Assembly: GCA_029210815.1 (NCBI GenBank)
Contig: JARGGB010000007.1
Coordinates: 2,550 to 66,549, forward strand
Source: Candidatus Brevefilum sp.
GTDB taxonomy: Bacteria; Chloroflexota; Anaerolineae; Anaerolineales; Anaerolineaceae
DNA: 64,000 bases
Reading direction: 5' to 3'
Shown here piece after piece: positions 6,271 through 40,000 of the stretch. Under the pieces are notes generated by a model. It ran no database searches, was not told the DNA's origin, and saw only the letters and a list, made by a program, of their open reading frames with translations. Position 1 is the first letter of the stretch. Each line of letters begins with the position of its first letter. A program made the translations under genes and the position numbers.

Positions 6271-6423
6271 TTCAAATATTTTGAGTTAAATCCCAGCAAT
6301 AAAAGAATAGTTATAATAAGTCATTGTTATGGTGCGTTTTGGAACAATAGCTGGAAAATTATTCAGAAATTTCTTAAGAACCCTTTGATCAATAAAGTGA
6401 AGATATTTTGAGAGGATGAAAAA

Positions 6424-7125
6424 ATGCCAGATAAAGAACTGATAGAAGCATACAACTATGATTCGTTTGTGCCTGAAAAATATGAACGGTGGTTAAATTT
6501 TGAGTCCAGCCTGCCCTTGGGGAAAATTATTACAGATTTTTCCTTGTGGGATCTCAATAAAGAGCAAACCACTTTGGTGACCGAGGTCAATCAACATCCA
6601 CTGACATTTATTGAATTTGGCAGTTTTACCTGACCATACTGCGGTCTGGCGGCGTCAGACATGAATGCTGTTGCTGAGAAGTATGCCCACTGGGATGTTG
6701 GGGCATTATTCATATATACCAACGAGGCACATCCGGGTGAGAATTTCCCTCACCTCACATCCATGGAAGAGAAATTCGACCATGCGAGAAAACTGCGGGA
6801 CAGATTAGGGGTTACAAGAAGAATTCTGGTGGATTCTTTAGACGGCAAATGCCACCGAGCCTTTGGGTCCATGCCCAATATGACCTGGATCCTGACCAAC
6901 TCCGGCATGCCGATCTATAAAGCAGATTGGACTGATTATGTGAGCGTAGAAAATGCACTGGACTATTTCCTTAACATGCAAGAACGACGTCGATCCGGGC
7001 AGCGTTTGGTCCCTTTTTCAGTTAAACGGCTGGATTATCGCGAGAGCGATCGTGAGGCTTTTTACAGAAGATTGGCAGAAAACGGTGAGAGAGCTGTGCA
7101 AGAATTTAAAGAAGCCTTTGGATAA
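6424..7125 (+). CDS. Deiodinase-like thioredoxin-fold selenoprotein (in-frame UGA = Sec)
   Basis: One 233-codon frame runs from ATG 6424 (AGAGGA at 6411-6416) to the stop at 7123-7125, interrupted only by TGA at 6631-6633. The residues before it, FIEFGSFT, and after it, PYCGLAA, reproduce the iodothyronine deiodinase active site (vertebrate FGSCT-Sec-PP). Reading UGA as selenocysteine gives U70-P-Y-C73, a redox UxxC pair resembling glutaredoxin CPYC. Downstream, FIYTNEAHPGENF matches the deiodinase VYIxEAH region, and WILTNSGMPIY fits the last strand of the fold. Bacterial members are known from metagenomes; their substrate is not established and iodothyronines are unlikely. A conventional caller would split this into 6424-6633 and 6661-7125. 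The alternative is a pseudogene with a nonsense mutation, which the conserved context and the hairpin at 6644-6660 make less likely. Confidence 0.82.
6644..6660 (+). promoter_or_regulatory. Candidate bacterial SECIS hairpin
   Basis: Immediately downstream of the in-frame UGA, GUCUG (6644-6648) pairs with CAGAC (6656-6660). The stem can extend through a G-U and a C-G pair to a GGC triloop at 6651-6653. The loop begins 17 bases after the UGA and starts with G, which matches the general rule for SelB-bound bacterial SECIS elements. It lies inside the coding sequence, as expected in bacteria. Confidence 0.6.
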
Positions 7126-7269: not shown

Positions 7270-8520
7270 TCATTCGGACGACGGCTGATAGATTTGGGTT
7301 TCCGGTTTGAAGGCTGCCCAGGCGAACCACAGGTAATTAACCCCGACAACCTCTTCCAATTGTTCACCCTCCAGCGGACCGGAAAGGGCATGCCCCAGGA
7401 AATCCCAGGTGCTTCCGGTTTCCTCATCCACAATTCGATCATCATCTAATTGGAAGGTTAATTCCTGTCCATCCAAAATACGGCTGAAAGCGATCGCCGA
7501 CCCCACATCCTGACCATCTGATATGAATTGTGCATCCAACGCAGACGCTGTCCCGGGTGCCCAGAAGATAACCACATCCTGGTTCCCTACCCGGTCATTG
7601 ACCACCCTCACGTCAGCAAGCACACGATAAGGATAGGCGACGGTTTCGCCATCAAAATCAAGGGCTAAAATTCTATCAACCGGCGATAATTCTCCAGGAG
7701 TCTCTGGTCCCCGGTAGAGGAATGGAATATTATCCACATCGTCATAGCCAGCGTAGGGATTGGTTCCATAAGGTCGATTATGGCCGGTTTCCCGGGACAA
7801 TACCAACCCATCAGGGTGGGCATTCTTGAAATCTTCCCAGGCGATCATCGCTCCTGGCAAAAGGCTAAGCTTATTGCCGGTTAAAGTACCTACAATCCCT
7901 TCGCCTGTTGCTTGCTGCCACCACGATTCAGTCTGGCGATCATACATGATCAGGTTGCTGAACCGAAGCCTTCCGGTCGTCCCAAAATCCAGCACTTCAC
8001 CATCAATCGTCCTTTCAAAAACAATCGCGGTATTGCAAAGTGGACAGAAAGAAACAACGATCGGGATATCTCCCAGTGTGTCATTGACGATTTCATGCCA
8101 CATCAGGATTTGGATCGGATAGGCTTTAACTGCCTGATCGATTGAGACCAGGATTACCGGCTCTCGCGGGTCCAACCATTGATCAGCCGCTTCAATTGAA
8201 GTAAATTGCGGGTTGTCAATGGGTGGGATTCCATCCTTTGAGGGTCCACCAGATAAAATTTCATTAAAGGGAACGGCAGAGATTGAAAAATCTGTTGTAA
8301 ATTCCCGTTCTGCGCCGGTAGGCGGACTTGAGTTATCAAATAAATTTTGAGTAGGTGTCACAATTTCCCTTTTTTCTACTATTTCAGACTCAGATGTTTC
8401 AGTTGGTTCCACGCCATTCGCCTGGTCCTCTATTAGGATTTCTTCTTTTTGGGACGTGCAGGCGGCAAGAAATAGGATCAGTAAAATTGGCAATACCAGA
8501 ATCATTTTATTTTTCATCAC
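7270..8520 (-). CDS. DUF3179 domain lipoprotein
   Basis: A 416-residue exported protein. The signal peptide ends in a lipobox FLAAC with the lipidated Cys at residue 21, followed by an acidic Thr/Glu linker. The rest matches the DUF3179 family: DGIPPIDNPQF, AYPIQILMWHEIVND and the hallmark FCPLCNTA with two cysteines near residues 160-163, then SWWQQATGEGIVG. The molecular function of DUF3179 is unknown; the CxxC suggests metal or redox chemistry outside the membrane. It is a single gene convergent with the selenoprotein gene. Confidence 0.88.
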   Translation of the reverse strand: MMKNKMILVLPILLILFLAACTSQKEEILIEDQANGVEPTETSESEIVEKREIVTPTQNLFDNSSPPTGAEREFTTDFSISAVPFNEILSGGPSKDGIPPIDNPQFTSIEAADQWLDPREPVILVSIDQAVKAYPIQILMWHEIVNDTLGDIPIVVSFCPLCNTAIVFERTIDGEVLDFGTTGRLRFSNLIMYDRQTESWWQQATGEGIVGTLTGNKLSLLPGAMIAWEDFKNAHPDGLVLSRETGHNRPYGTNPYAGYDDVDNIPFLYRGPETPGELSPVDRILALDFDGETVAYPYRVLADVRVVNDRVGNQDVVIFWAPGTASALDAQFISDGQDVGSAIAFSRILDGQELTFQLDDDRIVDEETGSTWDFLGHALSGPLEGEQLEEVVGVNYLWFAWAAFKPETQIYQPSSE

Positions 8521-8777
8521 AATAACCTTTCATATTCAACAACCACTAAATTCTTTCCTTAATTTACAGACGGGCAATGGTCTATCTTTCTTACCTGCTC
8601 ATAATATTCTCAAAGAAACGCTTCATTCAAAAAATGGGGGAAAAGCTGGAAAGATGGACGATTAAAACCCTCTTCAGCAAAAAACATGCTTGATTGAAAA
8701 AATTTTTAGGTCATGAAACTATCATTGTTTTATATTATTTGGTGGATTTATTTATTAAAAGACCGCCAATTTCATAG

Positions 8778-8783
8778 TATACT
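8778..8783 (+). promoter_or_regulatory. Candidate -10 box (TATACT) for the ECF sigma gene
   Basis: TATACT lies 19 bases before the ATG at 8803. If used, it excludes the longer frame opening at 8713 and supports the start chosen for the sigma factor. The -35 is poor. The 282-base divergent gap (8521-8802) shows nothing else clear. Confidence 0.35.
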
Positions 8784-8802
8784 AAAAAGGACCGGAGCAA
8801 TT

Positions 8803-9438
8803 ATGAGTGAACGTTCAAATGAAGATTGGTTAACCAGCCTTCGATCTTCTGGCAAAGCCAAACAGGGGGCTTTGGCGGATTTAAGGGAGATCATTCTCAA
8901 CTCGCTGCCATATGCCTTATCTAAATATCTCCATCCCACAAACCCTCATTTTGATCCTTTGATCCAGGAGGTGGCTCAGGAAACCCTCTTGCGCGTGATG
9001 GACCGATTGGAGACCTTTGAAGGGCGGAGTAAATTTACAACCTGGGTGCACACTATCTCTGTCAGAATTGCCCTCACTGAGCTCCGACGTGCTCGGTGGA
9101 AAGAAGTCTCACTGGACGAACTTCAAAACGGCATGGACAGCGACGATAAAATGCGTGAAATGCCGGACCAGGATATGGATGTGGAAGCCTCAGCAGAACA
9201 AAGTGAAATCATGGCAATGATCCAAAAAACGATGATGGAAATTCTGACTGAAAAACAGCGTAAAGCATTGATGGCAGTGGCTGTACGAGGGATGCCAATA
9301 GCAGAGGTCGCTGACCGAATGGGTTCTAACAGGAACGCGCTTTATAAATTACTTCATGATGCCCGTCTAAAATTGAAAAATCATTTTGATGAACAGGGAA
9401 TGACCCCTGAAAATATACTTTCATCATTTGAGAAGTAA
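8803..9438 (+). CDS. ECF-type RNA polymerase sigma factor
   Basis: Sigma-70 family regulator of 211 residues. Region 2 is seen in VAQETLLRVMDRLETFEGRSKFTTWVHTISVRIAL, including the -10-contacting FTTW helix. Region 4 is seen in LTEKQRKALMAVAVRGMPIAEVADRMGSN with its helix-turn-helix. The start at 8803 follows CGGAG and lies downstream of a TATACT box; a longer frame from 8713 would add 30 hydrophobic residues not expected in a sigma factor. A small zinc-finger protein follows after 59 bases, a common sigma/anti-sigma arrangement. The regulon is unknown. Confidence 0.92.
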   Translation: MSERSNEDWLTSLRSSGKAKQGALADLREIILNSLPYALSKYLHPTNPHFDPLIQEVAQETLLRVMDRLETFEGRSKFTTWVHTISVRIALTELRRARWKEVSLDELQNGMDSDDKMREMPDQDMDVEASAEQSEIMAMIQKTMMEILTEKQRKALMAVAVRGMPIAEVADRMGSNRNALYKLLHDARLKLKNHFDEQGMTPENILSSFEK

Positions 9439-9497
9439 GATTATCTTATTTGATCCCATCTAATAAATAAGGATAATAATAATCAGGAAAATTCTTT

Positions 9498-9791
9498 ATG
9501 AAGTGGTTGAAACGTCTCTTTAGATCAAAAAAAACAGCAAAGCCAGAGAAAAAGATGGCAATGACCTCCGATCAAGCTGAGAAAATGCTCAGGATGATCG
9601 AACACACCCAGGCTGAAGAATTATCCTGTGATGAGGTTTTTGATTTGCTGGATGTTTATGCTGAAATGGCTGCTCGGGGTGAGGACGTGGGGGAACTGTA
9701 CCCATTAGTGGAACATCACCTGGAGATGTGTCCTGATTGCCGAGAAGAGTATGAGGCTGTCATGCGGATCCTTGAGCAAAGAACGGAATAA
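9498..9791 (+). CDS. Putative zinc-finger anti-sigma factor
   Basis: A 97-residue soluble protein with a basic N-terminus and the motif HHLEMCPDCREEY, i.e. His-x3-Cys-x2-Cys, with an upstream Cys in LSCDEVFDLLD. This is the zinc-binding anti-sigma (ZAS/zf-HC2) pattern. It has no transmembrane segment, so any signal would be cytoplasmic, for example redox or metal state. Its position directly after an ECF sigma gene supports the role, but direct binding is inferred. Confidence 0.7.
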   Translation: MKWLKRLFRSKKTAKPEKKMAMTSDQAEKMLRMIEHTQAEELSCDEVFDLLDVYAEMAARGEDVGELYPLVEHHLEMCPDCREEYEAVMRILEQRTE

Positions 9792-11294: not shown

Positions 11295-12674
11295 TTACGA
11301 TAAATTCGCAAAGAGGGTGTTAAGGCCTTCTGCCAGGGTCGGATGGGCAAATATCCCATCCCGCAGTTTCTTGTAGGACAGCTCCCCCATCATCGCGATT
11401 TCCAGCATCGACATAATCTCACCGCCGTCATAACCCAAGACAGCAGCGCCCAATATTTGCTGGCTTTCTGGATCAACCAGCGCTTTGATCAAACCTCGTG
11501 AACGATCGATTTCCAGGATCCTTGCGATATAGTTCATCGGGATTTTTGCCACATTGTATTCGATCTCTCGCTTTTGAGCTTCTTTTTCACTCAAGCCAAT
11601 CCGCCCCAACTGGGGATCACTGAATAACACATAAGGGACCAGCCGACCTTCGATGCTCAGGTCACCATCCTCCAGAAGATTAGCCTTGAGAATCCGATAA
11701 TCGTCATAAGAAATATGGGTGAAGGCAGGCCCTCCTTTAATATCACCGGCTGCATAAATCCCGGGGACGTTTGTTTCAAGTCGTCCATTGACTTTAATGT
11801 TCCCCCTGGCATCCGTCTCAACGGAGGTTTTCTCCAGATTCAACCGGTCGCTGTTTGGAACACGACCGGCGGCAACAAGCAGATGGGAACCGCTAAGAGT
11901 AATCTCACCTTCAGGCGTGTTTGCCTTCAAGACCACACCACCTTGCTCATTTTTTTCGACAGCGATTGGGTCTGTGCTGAGAAAGACCTTGATCCCATCT
12001 TCTTCTAAAATTGATTGGATCTCTTCGGCGACATCCTCATCCTCACGAGTTAATAACTGCTCTGAGTGCTGGATAATCGTCACTTCACTCCCAAACCGAC
12101 GGAACATCTGTCCAAATTCGATTGCGATATAACCTCCGCCCACTATGATCAAGTGCTCAGGGACGGATTCCAATTCCATGATCGACGTTGAATTCAGATA
12201 CGGCACTTTAGCCAACCCTTCAATTTCCGGAATTCTTGGTCTTCCACCGGCATCGATGATCACTTTTTCAGCGGTTACTTCCCGGGTTTCACCTTCCTCA
12301 GTTACAACTTTCAAGGTTTTGTGACTGGTGAAAGATGCAGTACCAAAGATCAATTCCACCCCTGAATTAATGATCCGGTTCCTGCTTCCCTCCCTGAAAC
12401 TTTTAACAATCTCAGATTTTCTCGCTTTGACCTTTTTCATATCGACGGCCACATCCTCTATCACTACCCCAAAATCCAACGCACGGTTCGCCAAATAGGC
12501 GACTTCAGCGCTTGCGACCATGGTTTTCGTCGGCGTACAACCAACATTGATACAGGTGCCACCGACAAATTGTTCCTCAATTAACGCCACATGTTCACCG
12601 GATTTGGCAAGGGCTTGTGAAAGGGGATTGCCTGCCTGTCCAGCACCAATAATTATCGTATCAAAAACTTCCAT
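11295..12674 (-). CDS. Pyridine nucleotide-disulfide oxidoreductase, MerA/RclA-like
   Basis: FAD flavoprotein disulfide reductase of 459 residues. The N-terminal FAD-binding site is IIIGAGQAGNP. The redox-active disulfide is in GGTCINVGCTPTKT. The NAD(P)-binding GGGYIAIEFG, the second FAD motif GIYAAGDIKGGPAFTH and the C-terminal active-site pair in HPTLAEGL are all present. It lacks the C-terminal vicinal cysteines and N-terminal HMA domain of true mercuric reductase, so a RclA-like or other metal/quinone reductase is more likely. The ATG at 12674 follows GGAGG; a TTG four codons earlier is unlikely. It follows the osmolyte transporter permease after 14 bases and is probably co-transcribed. 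Confidence 0.88.
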   Translation of the reverse strand: MEVFDTIIIGAGQAGNPLSQALAKSGEHVALIEEQFVGGTCINVGCTPTKTMVASAEVAYLANRALDFGVVIEDVAVDMKKVKARKSEIVKSFREGSRNRIINSGVELIFGTASFTSHKTLKVVTEEGETREVTAEKVIIDAGGRPRIPEIEGLAKVPYLNSTSIMELESVPEHLIIVGGGYIAIEFGQMFRRFGSEVTIIQHSEQLLTREDEDVAEEIQSILEEDGIKVFLSTDPIAVEKNEQGGVVLKANTPEGEITLSGSHLLVAAGRVPNSDRLNLEKTSVETDARGNIKVNGRLETNVPGIYAAGDIKGGPAFTHISYDDYRILKANLLEDGDLSIEGRLVPYVLFSDPQLGRIGLSEKEAQKREIEYNVAKIPMNYIARILEIDRSRGLIKALVDPESQQILGAAVLGYDGGEIMSMLEIAMMGELSYKKLRDGIFAHPTLAEGLNTLFANLS

Positions 12675-12688
12675 AAGTACCTCCAATA

Positions 12689-21551: not shown

Positions 21552-22466
21552 ATGAAATTAGCCATGGTGGGTTTAGGTAAGATGGGTGCCAATATGGCGC
21601 GCCGCCTGCTCAAAAGCGGTCATCAAGTGGTTGGGGTGGATCACCATCCTGAGGTTGCTGAAAAATTAGCAGAAGAATTTGGTCTGATTCCAGCAGCAAC
21701 CTTAGATGAAGCAATTGAAAAACTGGCAGCACCCCGGGTGGTCTGGGTAATGGTGCCCGCGGGGAAACCGACAGAAGCTGTGATAAATGACCTGGGAAAT
21801 TTGCTCTCTCAAGGGGACATCATCGTTGATGGAGGGAATTCATTTTACCAGGATGATATCCGTAGAGCATCTCAGCTTAAGGAAAAAGGGATTAACTTTG
21901 TTGATGCAGGAACCAGCGGTGGGATTTGGGGACTGGAAGAAGGTTACAGCCTGATGGTCGGTGGCGAGGAGTCAGTTGTCAACCAAATAACACCCCTTTT
22001 CAAATCCCTTGCACCAACACCAGAATTGGGATGGGGTCATGTCGGACCCGTCGGTGCAGGACATTTCGTAAAAATGATCCATAATGGTATCGAATATGGA
22101 TTGATGGAAGCGTATGCAGAGGGATTCCAATTACTTGAAAAGAAAACGGAAATGGACCTGGATCTTCATCAAATCGCGGAAATTTGGCGTTACGGCAGTG
22201 TCATTCGTTCCTGGCTTTTGGACCTGACAGCTGCTGCATTGGAAGAGAATCCAGAACTGGAGGGTATTGCGGCTTTTGTGCCAGATTCTGGAGAAGGTCG
22301 CTGGACAGTGGCAGAAGCTATCGATCTTAATTGTTCAATTCCGGTTATTTCGATGGCCCTCCAAAGGCGTTTCCGCAGCCGGGAGGCAGCACCTTTTGCT
22401 GATAAACTCCTCGCTGCCATGCGAAATCAATTCGGCGGACACGCTGTCAAAAAGGTGGAAAAGTGA
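21552..22466 (+). CDS. gnd: 6-phosphogluconate dehydrogenase, short decarboxylating form
   Basis: Oxidatively decarboxylates 6-phosphogluconate to ribulose-5-phosphate. It is 304 residues, the short class (often NAD-dependent) rather than the about 470-residue long form. The Rossmann motif [13 protein letters not shown] is at residues 7-19, the substrate loop is [18 protein letters not shown], and the catalytic Lys lies in [29 protein letters not shown] precedes the ATG. Its stop overlaps the GTG start of zwf in GTGA, a tight translational coupling. Confidence 0.93.
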
Positions 22467-23929
22467 ACAGTCAAACCAAACCTACCAGCTTTGTAATCTT
22501 TGGTGCCTCAGGGGATCTGACCTGGCGGAAATTAATCCCTGCCCTTTATAATAATTATAAAAAAGGTCGTCTGGAGAATTGTACAAATATTATCGGCTTT
22601 GCCCGACGAAGTTATAACAACGAAACATTTCGGGAACACTTGAAATCCGGCGTGGAAGAATTTTCTCCTGAATCCTTTGATAACGATACATGGGACCAAT
22701 TCGCCAAGAAACTTTATTATAAAAGTGGCTTATTTGATAACCCTGATGCATATTCTGACTTGAAGACTTTTTTACAAAAGCTCGAAGGCCAGCAAGCCAA
22801 TCGTCTGTATTACCTGGCAACCGCGCCAAAATTTTATGCCATGATATCCGGGTACTTGGCTGATGAAGGGATGGCAAAAGAAGACCAGTCCAATAATAGC
22901 TGGCGTCGAATCATCATTGAAAAGCCATTTGGCCGAGATTTATCTTCCGCCCAGGAATTGAACCAAGCAATCCACAAGGCATTTAATGAATCCCAGGTCT
23001 ATCGAATTGACCATTATCTGGGAAAAGAAACCTCCCAAAATATCCTTTTCTTCCGATTTGCGAACACCATCTTCGAACCAGTTTGGAACCGGAGATACAT
23101 TAGCAATGTTCAAATCACCGTTGCAGAAACTGTAGATGTTGGCAGGCGGGCAGGCTACTATGATTCTGCTGGCGTGCTGAGAGATATGTTCCAAAATCAC
23201 CTTTTTCAACTGTTATCATTGGTCGCCATGGAATCACCATCAATCTTCAATGCTACAGCTATACGAAATGAGAAGGTCAAGGTTTTACAAAGTGTTCGCC
23301 CGATCCTCCGTGAAGACACTGTCCTCGCCCAATATGAGGGTTATAAAGAATCTGATGGCGTGAGCCCTGAGTCAAATACACCGACTTACGCTGCCCTTAA
23401 AGTTTTTATTGATAACTGGCGATGGAAAGGTGTTCCATTTTACTTAAGATCAGGAAAAGCACTAAAGCGGAAGACCTCGGAAATTATTATTGAATTTCAA
23501 AGTCCACCACATATGATCTTTGAAGCTGCCGGACCAGTGGATTGTTCACAAAATTTTTTATCTCTTTGCATCCAACCAGATGAAGGGATTCACCTGCGTT
23601 TTGAAGCAAAAGTTCCCGATACTGATCAGGAGATGCGTTCAGTGGACATGGATTTCCATTATCGTTCATCTTTTGGTGATAAAACGTTACCAGAAGCCTA
23701 TGAAAGGCTTCTTTTGGAAGCGTTAAATGGGAATGCATCCTTATTTACGCGGTCTGATGGCATTGAAGCATCATGGCAGATTATTGATCCAATTATTAAA
23801 TCCATTGAAAGTCCTGGTGGACCAAAAATCGTTTCTTATTCCCGAGGCACATGGGGTCCTGATGAGGCGGATCATCTTCTACTTAAAAATGGAAACCACT
23901 GGCGGTTAGGTTGCATCGATTTTTCATAA
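22463..23929 (+). CDS. zwf: Glucose-6-phosphate 1-dehydrogenase
   Basis: First enzyme of the oxidative pentose phosphate pathway. The 488-residue protein has the coenzyme site [20 protein letters not shown], the EKPFGRDL motif and the catalytic signature RIDHYLGKE near residue 183. The C-terminal part has [12 protein letters not shown] and the [10 protein letters not shown] region. The GTG start overlaps gnd by four bases. The gnd-zwf order, with 6-phosphogluconolactonase absent, suggests the lactonase is elsewhere or that hydrolysis is spontaneous. Confidence 0.97.
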
Positions 23930-37054: not shown

Positions 37055-40000
37055 CTAATCCAAATTTGAAATTAGTATGGGAACCTGGGCGAAATCATCC
37101 GGGGTCAGGGAATCAAGCGAACCAGTCTTGCTTGGATAATCACCTAAAATGTCCGTCTGGTTTAAATCAGATCCTTCAGGCAAGATCAAATCAATGATTC
37201 GTGTATGATTGACATCGCCTGTTGAACCGCCGAATACCCATTGTGCGGATTGCAGACTGACATCTCTCACCCGCCAAACGCCTTCTGCAGGATAGCCTTC
37301 CTGGCTGAGCACTGCTGCAGCATAAGCCCAGGTCGCAGGGTCACCCTCGGGTAAAAAGCTTAAAGGAACGCGTATGGTAACAAGGTTTTGATTAGAATCC
37401 ACCACAATTTTCATTGAACTTGATGCTTCTGAATAATCCTTTGGTTCGAGCGAATCCGGATCACTCTGAACTACTTGCGATGTCCAGCCCTCTGCCCAAA
37501 TCGCGTACTCCCAGCCGAAGCCTTCTTCAAGGGATGCATTACGCCCGGGCAGCAGTTTCCTGGCGCCCGAGCCTTCACCGGGGTCAGTATCGATATAAAC
37601 ATCCATCGTTTGCAGCGATAAACCAATCGGGGAACCCCATGGATTCTCGACCGGACCAACAAAATTAAAATTAATCACAAGGTTCTCTGAATCGGTGCCA
37701 ACAGAAAAAGCCTGGACGTCAAAAACAGAATCCTTGAAAACAGCATCATTCGGATAAGTGTAAGTCCCGGGTCCGTAATCATCGCCTACAGGATCCTGAA
37801 CCTCTAAAAAGACAGCCGTCCCACCAAGGTCCGGTATCAACATCTGTGCAGGACCAGATAATGGAATTTGATCGCCATCGGGTTCAACAATAACCTTGAA
37901 TTTGAGCAAATCGCCTGCTCTCAAGTCCCCTAAAAGATTTAAAGGCAGCGCTAATTCAGCCATGCCCTGTCCTGAAACACCCTGACCTGCCTCCCCTTCC
38001 ATTTGAACCCATTGATCATCTTCAACCTGGTATAGCACCAGTGCGCTATCCGAGGGTGACCAGGTGAGCAATTTATTCGCCCTGAACCCTAAGACGGACT
38101 CCGACTCAAGACTTAAGGCACGTTTCCCAGTTTCCAATCCCGGGACTGAAAAATAAACACTGAACTGCCTGGCACCAACAGCACCTTCAAAATCAAAGCG
38201 CAAATACAGGTTTTCTTCATCCAGGCTCGTATACATGCCAGAAATCGCCGCAGCTTCTGAAGCTTCATAAAACGCAGCTGTCTCCCAGGCAGGCTCATCC
38301 TCACCATCCACTAATGGTGAAGCGATCCCACTCATCGACCGCGTCGCACTGACGGGCTGCGCTTCGATCACCGGGACACTCACGAAGCCAGGCACGTCAA
38401 GCCCCAGGGATTCGTAAACACCTGCTAACAAAGCCCGGTAACCCTCATCAAAATAGCTGTCCTGCCCTGAATCCTGGTCAGCGCCATACCACCAGAACCA
38501 GTCCGAACCCTCAGCCAAATACATAAAATCAAAGGCTTCAGCAATCGCTTCTTCACTGGCGCTTTCCTCACCGGTTTCATAAAGACTCAGATCATCCCGC
38601 ACCTGTGCCAGATAATCCCAGGCAACAGCTTCTTCACCCTCACCGATCCAGGTATCGTAATTGGGACTGAACCACGCACCGGGGAAGAGGTCATCCAGCT
38701 CTCGCTGCTCAGGGAACATTTCGAGATAATTCGATGGTGTGACCGTTTCCAAAACCTCACTTTCAGCAAATTTGCTGTACAGCGCGTGGAAGAAATCGTT
38801 GCCGTCGTTTTTATAATGCTCCCAGGCGTTTTCGCCATCGAGGATAATGCTGACAATATGCGGACCTTCACTCCCACTTGCCTGGAAATCTGCCTGGATC
38901 CCTTCAAGGTGGCTAATCAGATCCTGGGCAGCAGCTTCACCATCCATGCCTGAATAATCAAAACCAATCCGATCGGAAAGGCTGCCGTCCCTGAAGAAGA
39001 CCGCAACCTTCGTTCCATCTTCAGCAGAGACATAATATGGTCGATAAAGATCATCCGGCTGCTGTACAAAACCCTGCGAATCCCGTGTGAAGGAATCAAT
39101 ACCAAGGGATTTCGCCAATACCGGCTCACCGGTTTGCATAAAGGTATACCCTGCATCAGCCACCAGTGGGACGATGGCTTGTGCCACAGACCCCTCACCC
39201 GGCCAAAGCCCTCTTACTTCACGACCAAAATTCTCTTCATACATTTCAACACTAATCTCAAGATGGGTTTCAGCATCCTGCGGATAGCTGAAATCTGCTT
39301 CTGGCATCTCCGCACCCGGGTTACCAATCAGCGCCAATTCAATATCATAAATGAGCGGGAGGATGGGATGGGCATAAGGCGTTGTGGTCACTTCAATTTG
39401 GCCTGCATCCTGCAATTCCTTGTGATAAGGGATCACCGATTGGAGGACTTCAAGCACTTTTGTAAACAGGATGTCTTTATCTTCTTGCGTAAAATTCTCG
39501 CCTTTTTCCACAAGTGCCAGAAGCGGTTCCTGGCTTAAGTATTCCGGGTCAAACCAGGCGAGGTTGAACCAAACCTGCAGATCCATAAAATCCTGTTCCG
39601 TAAAGGTATCTAAAGCCGCCTGAACACTGGCTTGATCGCCGCCGCCCCGTTTATCCAATAATGCCTGATAACGTGGATACCTTGCAATGATATTATCCCA
39701 GTTGGCATCGAAAAACCGCTCCAGGATAAACTGCTTCTCTTCCAAAGTCAGCTCAGATACAGGTTTTTCTGCCAACACCCAGTAAATATCTTTGGCACCA
39801 TTTGCCAGGTCATTTATCTGGCGAATTAAAGATGGTGTCAGGTTGAAACTAACCTGAACATCCTCGTATGCGGCGATCTTCTCAGCCATATCCAGGTAAT
39901 CTTTCGTGGCATGAACGCGCACCCAGGGACGAGTATAGATCCCATCAGCATCCTTGTAATAAAGCGGTTGATGCTGATGCCATGTAAGGTTGACATACAG

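Follow-up and report, generated by a model that had tools for sequence, protein, structure and literature searches.

A predicted deiodinase-like selenoprotein with a UPYC site in Candidatus Brevefilum (Chloroflexota)

Bacterial deiodinase-like proteins, in both Sec and Cys forms, were described from Sargasso Sea data in 2005 (PMC1088965) and from GOS data in 2008 (PMC2398784), and a UxxC motif has been tabulated for the family (PMC13188914; PMC9312934). The authors of the 2005 study considered the bacterial proteins likely to have a function other than that of the animal deiodinases, possibly a redox function (PMC1088965). The available portions of PMC1088965, PMC2398784, and PMC13188914 name neither Chloroflexota nor gene neighbours for the deiodinase-like proteins. 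The gene studied here lies in a 64,000-nucleotide stretch of DNA from Candidatus Brevefilum sp., hereafter the window. Its predicted product resembles the bacterial proteins of these three papers, compared by description in their available text, in matching PF00837, in placing Sec within UxxC, in its predicted bacterial SECIS element, and in its bacterial origin. The kind of protein is already known; documented here are its gene neighbourhood and the proof at sequence level, which consists of a conserved UGA, translation through this UGA, a constrained and covarying SECIS element, a complete Sec machinery, and a fold match.

The animal deiodinases Dio1–3 (4tr3, 9h48) share with the window protein their fold (Z 17–18), the FGSxT-U-P and EAHP motifs, and most proton-relay residues. 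They differ in having UPP in place of UPYC with its local Cys partner, and in having a loop-D insertion. Their SECIS element is located in the 3'UTR, whereas that of the window gene is within the coding region, and a membrane anchor is not evident in the window protein.

Reading frame, fold, and active site

The first-pass annotation had proposed that the frame is open apart from one TGA, that this codon falls at the deiodinase active-site position, and that homology continues on both sides of it. The analysis agreed on each point. Between ATG 6424 and the stop at 7123–7125, the single interruption is the TGA at 6631–6633, and placing U at this codon gives a protein of 233 amino acids containing EFGSFT-U-PYCG (MPDKELIEAYNYDSFVPEKYERW...TFIEFGSFT-U-PYCGLAAS...YTNEAHPGENFPHLTS...SMPNMTWI...). 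Sec70 aligns with Sec130 of Dio2, and the EAHP motif that follows is common to the animal Dio proteins. The expected fragmentation by standard annotation is also seen, as the ORF list begins a second piece at ATG 6661. Elsewhere in the 64 kb, a TGA splits a frame of similar size (at least 60 amino acids before and at least 120 after the TGA) just once, at 38951; this second frame runs antisense to a gene of 1043 amino acids and was rejected.

Table 1. Features of the deiodinase-like gene and its surroundings in the window
Feature	Coordinates	Strand	Evidence or remark
Deiodinase-like selenoprotein CDS (predicted)	6424..7125	+	233 aa with Sec70; frame, PF00837, homologues, fold
TGA codon decoded as selenocysteine (Sec70; predicted)	6631..6633	+	TGA in 79/79; complete Sec machinery
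Cys73 codon, Sec partner in UxxC pair	6640..6642	+	Invariant Cys, 79/79 (best 80 of 229 relatives)
GAGAGG, likely Shine-Dalgarno, 8 nt 5' of ATG	6410..6415	+	Sequence
bSECIS hairpin (predicted): stem 6644-6649 with 6655-6660, loop CGGCG 6650-6654	6644..6660	+	Covariation, synonymous constraint
DUF3179 lipoprotein, Cys form (SFCPLCN)	7270..8520	-	Only DUF3179 of the genome; recurrent neighbour, Sec form precedes gene elsewhere
ECF-type sigma factor	8713..9438	+	Recurrent neighbour
Small CxxC-type protein beside sigma factor	9498..9791	+	Anti-sigma-like by position; no Pfam match; recurrent neighbour
Pyridine nucleotide-disulphide oxidoreductase	11295..12686	-	Recurrent neighbour type
Glucose-6-phosphate dehydrogenase (zwf)	22463..23929	+	Homologue directly upstream of deiodinase-like gene in five other genomes

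Homologues were collected in three sets: from the 147 genomes of the taxonomic family, from the phylum, and from a profile scan of species genomes. The profile scan gave 229 relatives, mostly from Anaerolineae and other Chloroflexota, and the best 80 were kept. Of these, 78 loci cover the site, which with the window makes 79 sequences. All counts out of 79 or 76 refer to the best 80 of the 229 relatives.

The read-through protein passes the PF00837 check, though narrowly (27.5 bits against a gathering threshold of 27, hmmscan), and 14 of 14 diverse members match this family (best E 2.4e-10). A PF00837 search of the genome itself and 14 controls returned nothing, which we do not take as absence, since the read-through protein passes in hmmscan. 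All 14 aligned members also match NF038285 (deiodinase_rel, NCBIfam; E below 1e-3). This model is longer (347 positions), and the window protein falls under its cut-off (45.2 bits against 250). AhpC/TSA and ResA-like proteins of the thioredoxin fold have the fold and the position of the reactive residue in common with the window protein, but it scores below the Pfam cut-offs for these (PF00578, 18.5 against 26 bits), and its structural Z to them is lower than to Dio.

The AlphaFold model (14-row alignment; pLDDT 82, pTM 0.83) has mouse Dio2 (Z 17.7, 158 residues, 2.6 Å) and Dio3 (Z 17.0) as its best structural matches, and general thioredoxin-fold proteins follow at lower values (Z at most 15.1). 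When ranked by Foldseek alone, the top match is an uncharacterised protein from Sinorhizobium, and Dio3 comes fourth. In the profile comparison, Dio3 is matched with an E of 6.6e-10. The gene product is very probably a redox enzyme with selenium, built like the thyroid-hormone deiodinases, and would be a thioredoxin-fold, probably cytosolic selenoprotein.

The UxxC redox pair noticed in the first reading is present throughout, as Cys73 is invariant (79 of 79 among the best 80 of 229 relatives), and it makes possible a local Sec-Cys selenenylsulfide, unlike in animal Dio. In the chemistry we propose, the Sec selenolate would be the attacking group, Cys73 would resolve Sec to form the selenenylsulfide, and thioredoxin or a pyridine-nucleotide disulfide reductase would re-reduce it at the expense of NADPH. 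Thyroid hormone is a less likely substrate than a hydroperoxide or other electrophile, for which a halogenated aromatic is one possibility. We infer an NADPH/thioredoxin-fed selenol-thiol reductase that acts on peroxides or perhaps halogenated aromatics; the scheme in all its steps could equally prove right or wrong. Thyroid-hormone-type chemistry is not implied by the UPYC site, and iodothyronine deiodination appears unlikely because of the local Sec/Cys pair and the missing loop-D insertion.

The same selenoprotein might instead be a true reductive dehalogenase, acting on environmental iodinated or brominated phenols, and not a peroxidase or disulfide reductase. Dio2 and Dio3 are its closest relatives among solved structures, and the relay residues Ser127, Thr129, Sec130, Tyr157, Glu160, and His162 of Dio2 (PMC11592359) have Ser67, Thr69, Sec70, Tyr98, Glu101, and His103 as their aligned counterparts, of which Tyr98, Glu101, and His103 are invariant among the best 80 of 229 relatives. 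However, the loop-D insertion that follows EAHP and precedes the second relay His is absent (the profile alignment to Dio3 has a gap of 9 residues here). This second His (His182 in Dio2) aligns with Leu111, adjacent to His110; the residue at 111 is a His in 20 of 76 relatives (best 80 of 229). PF00578 and PF08534 match 13 of the 14 members about as well as PF00837 does, and the aligned animal enzymes have UPP and no UxxC pair. We regard such a dehalogenase as doubtful and prefer the selenol-thiol reductase.

Decoding of the in-frame UGA

The source genome, a 2.66-Mb draft that is 96% complete, has all four components that the first-pass annotation named for checking: SelA (422 bits), SelB (354 bits, over cut-off), SelD (334 bits; G000:C75:2143-3066), and tRNA-Sec with a UCA anticodon (69.3 bits, over cut-off). 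The SelD gene has an in-frame TGA of its own (SSCAG-U-ASK), in agreement with the UxxK motif that PMC13188914 lists for SelD of the Sec type. As SelD also needs an in-frame UGA, it speaks independently for the decoding of UGA as Sec in this genome. SelA occurs in 114 of the 147 genomes of the taxonomic family and in all eight with a deiodinase-like homologue, a co-occurrence that adds little because SelA is so common. Two phylum genomes with a TGA homologue gave no SelA match, G411 (with L038; completeness rated 95%) and G358 (with L044).

The TGA is conserved. Full-length homologues (59–61% identity) occur in seven other genomes of the 147, and all of them have a single TGA, located at the identical codon position, which makes eight of eight for the taxonomic family. 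Among the best 80 of 229 relatives, TGA is found at the site in 79 of 79 sequences and Cys in none. Because Cys at this position was specified in one of the two search patterns, the lack of Cys forms is not an artefact of the search. Another stop precedes codon +150 in just one of 76 loci (best 80 of 229 relatives). This conservation rejects a chance origin of the split frame at 6424–7125. Close relatives with another sense codon and a decayed 3' part, which the first-pass annotation had named as the pattern that would speak against Sec, were not encountered; the close relatives all have TGA and intact 3' parts.

In a maximum-likelihood tree, the UPYC proteins form one clade (99/97), apart from the UPP forms and animal Dio. 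The nearest phylum homologues, with UPYC, have the TGA too, and more distant ones have UPP as in animal deiodinases (L037, L038) or UPI or UPL. A distant relative with Cys at the Sec site is L042. L037 and L038 are Chloroflexota homologues whose site reads animal-like FGSxTUPPFV, and against mouse Dio3, L038 scores 62 bits and the window protein 24. In five distant homologues (L039, L040, L041, L043, and L058), Ser, Gly, Ala, or Asp replaces Sec in intact frames, and the 3' parts are not decayed in these either; their redox function is possibly lost or different. In some genomes the gene seems to be decaying: L138, on the same contig as L062, is a second copy frameshifted after the site, L132/L031 is a copy with an internal deletion, and L137 is a copy without the 5' part.

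The three codons after the TGA specify Pro, Tyr, and Cys in 78, 79, and 79 of 79 sequences (best 80 of 229 relatives), with third positions that are free, all synonymous codons being used. Conservation as protein with free third positions indicates that the stretch after UGA is translated, which argues against a stop at UGA followed by a restart at ATG 6661 and a second protein of 154 amino acids. The ORF list does start its second piece at this ATG, and the ATG is kept at codon +10 in 78 of 79 sequences (best 80 of 229 relatives). However, no ribosome-binding site is seen directly 5' of it, and the thioredoxin fold would be severed at its active-site helix. With the conservation between UGA and ATG, we reject two separate polypeptides as very improbable in favour of read-through with Sec.

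Beyond these three codons the pattern of constraint changes. At codons +4 to +9, third positions are frozen (79 sequences, best 80 of 229 relatives), which indicates synonymous constraint. Ala+6 is GCG in 76 of 79, and the invariant Ala+14 is spread over GCC (38), GCT (17), GCA (13), and GCG (11) in the same best 80 of 229. The constrained stretch folds as a 6-bp hairpin that starts at the 11th nucleotide after UGA. Standard pairs make up 93.9% of pair cells, and 15 cells are double-changed; none of 500 shuffles scored as high, and slid registers gave 30–50%. The apical loop is CGNNN in 76 of 79 hairpins, and nine of 79 have at least one broken pair (best 80 of 229 relatives). The window hairpin has itself a double change, U-A in place of G-C at one pair, arising from a silent change in Gly74 together with a substitution that makes residue 79 an Asp. 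Single-sequence z-scores for the hairpin are weak, and the minimum-energy fold of the 40-nt window sequence is an alternative one (-10.8 kcal/mol versus -8.8 for the SECIS hairpin). No Rfam family matches the hairpin. Bacterial SECIS elements feature a guanosine in a small apical loop (PMC1088965), and the hairpin with its apical G is, as judged from covariation, such an element. SelB and Sec-tRNA(Sec), each component being present, would bind this hairpin, which starts 11 nt past the UGA, and direct Sec to residue 70.

The first-pass annotation had thought an ordinary nonsense mutation improbable at this codon, and we reject a pseudogene (a Cys, Trp, or Arg gene changed by nonsense mutation or by an error of sequencing, with UGA undecoded) as exceedingly improbable, since the same TGA, at the catalytic site, is conserved across many lineages with intact 3' frames, even though standard gene calling yields fragments. 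Machinery, conserved TGA, covarying hairpin, and fold support the selenocysteine reading first put forward, and 6424–7125 almost certainly encodes a selenoprotein of the bacterial deiodinase-like family (PF00837, UxxC). From the same sequence evidence, we infer that Sec is incorporated in the source organism.

Gene neighbourhood and significance

Other neighbours in the window are DUF1684, an AhpC/TSA protein, and an osmolyte ABC transporter; glucokinase, a 6-phosphogluconate dehydrogenase, and G6PDH lie farther away. The window zwf is ~15 kb from the deiodinase-like gene. In L060, L063, L065, L067, and L068, zwf and the deiodinase-like gene share a strand, with zwf upstream and a gap of no more than about 30 nt between them. 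Sec forms of DUF3179 are already known (PMC13188914; PMC9312934). In eight loci (L062, L076, L077, L085, L094, L104, L113, and L130), the gene immediately preceding in the same orientation is a Sec-DUF3179 whose frame contains a TGA (LVTW-U-PxCYTG), an apparent operon of two selenoproteins by gene order and sequence; L076 has two such DUF3179 copies. DUF3179 is single-copy in the window genome, G004, G141, and G226, at about 1 to 21 kb from the deiodinase-like gene.

The redox neighbours, namely zwf, Sec-DUF3179, and the disulfide oxidoreductase, are in favour of the proposed reading. The neighbours recur in a minority of loci, and we offer the linkage as a lead only. The pair of ECF sigma factor and small CxxC protein (8713–9791 in the window) is also within 5 kb of the gene in several other loci, and may regulate it. 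A literature search found no report, among the papers it covered, of linkage of the deiodinase-like gene to zwf or Sec-DUF3179, and its position directly downstream of either in some genomes is possibly unreported so far. We tentatively suggest, though we think it rather unlikely, that the UPYC proteins form a Sec-only subfamily whose members act with G6PDH in a redox unit supplied by NADPH, joined in some genomes by Sec-DUF3179 from the same operon; this would be an undescribed two-selenoprotein detoxification of peroxides or halogenated aromatics.

A gene that annotation had split is now settled. The whole UPYC clade appears to use Sec, with no Cys version among the best 80 of 229 relatives. 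The neighbourhood offers testable partners for the bacterial deiodinase-like family, namely zwf, DUF3179, and the disulfide reductase, and the bacterial members with UPYC and with animal-like UPP provide material for studying the origin of deiodinase chemistry.
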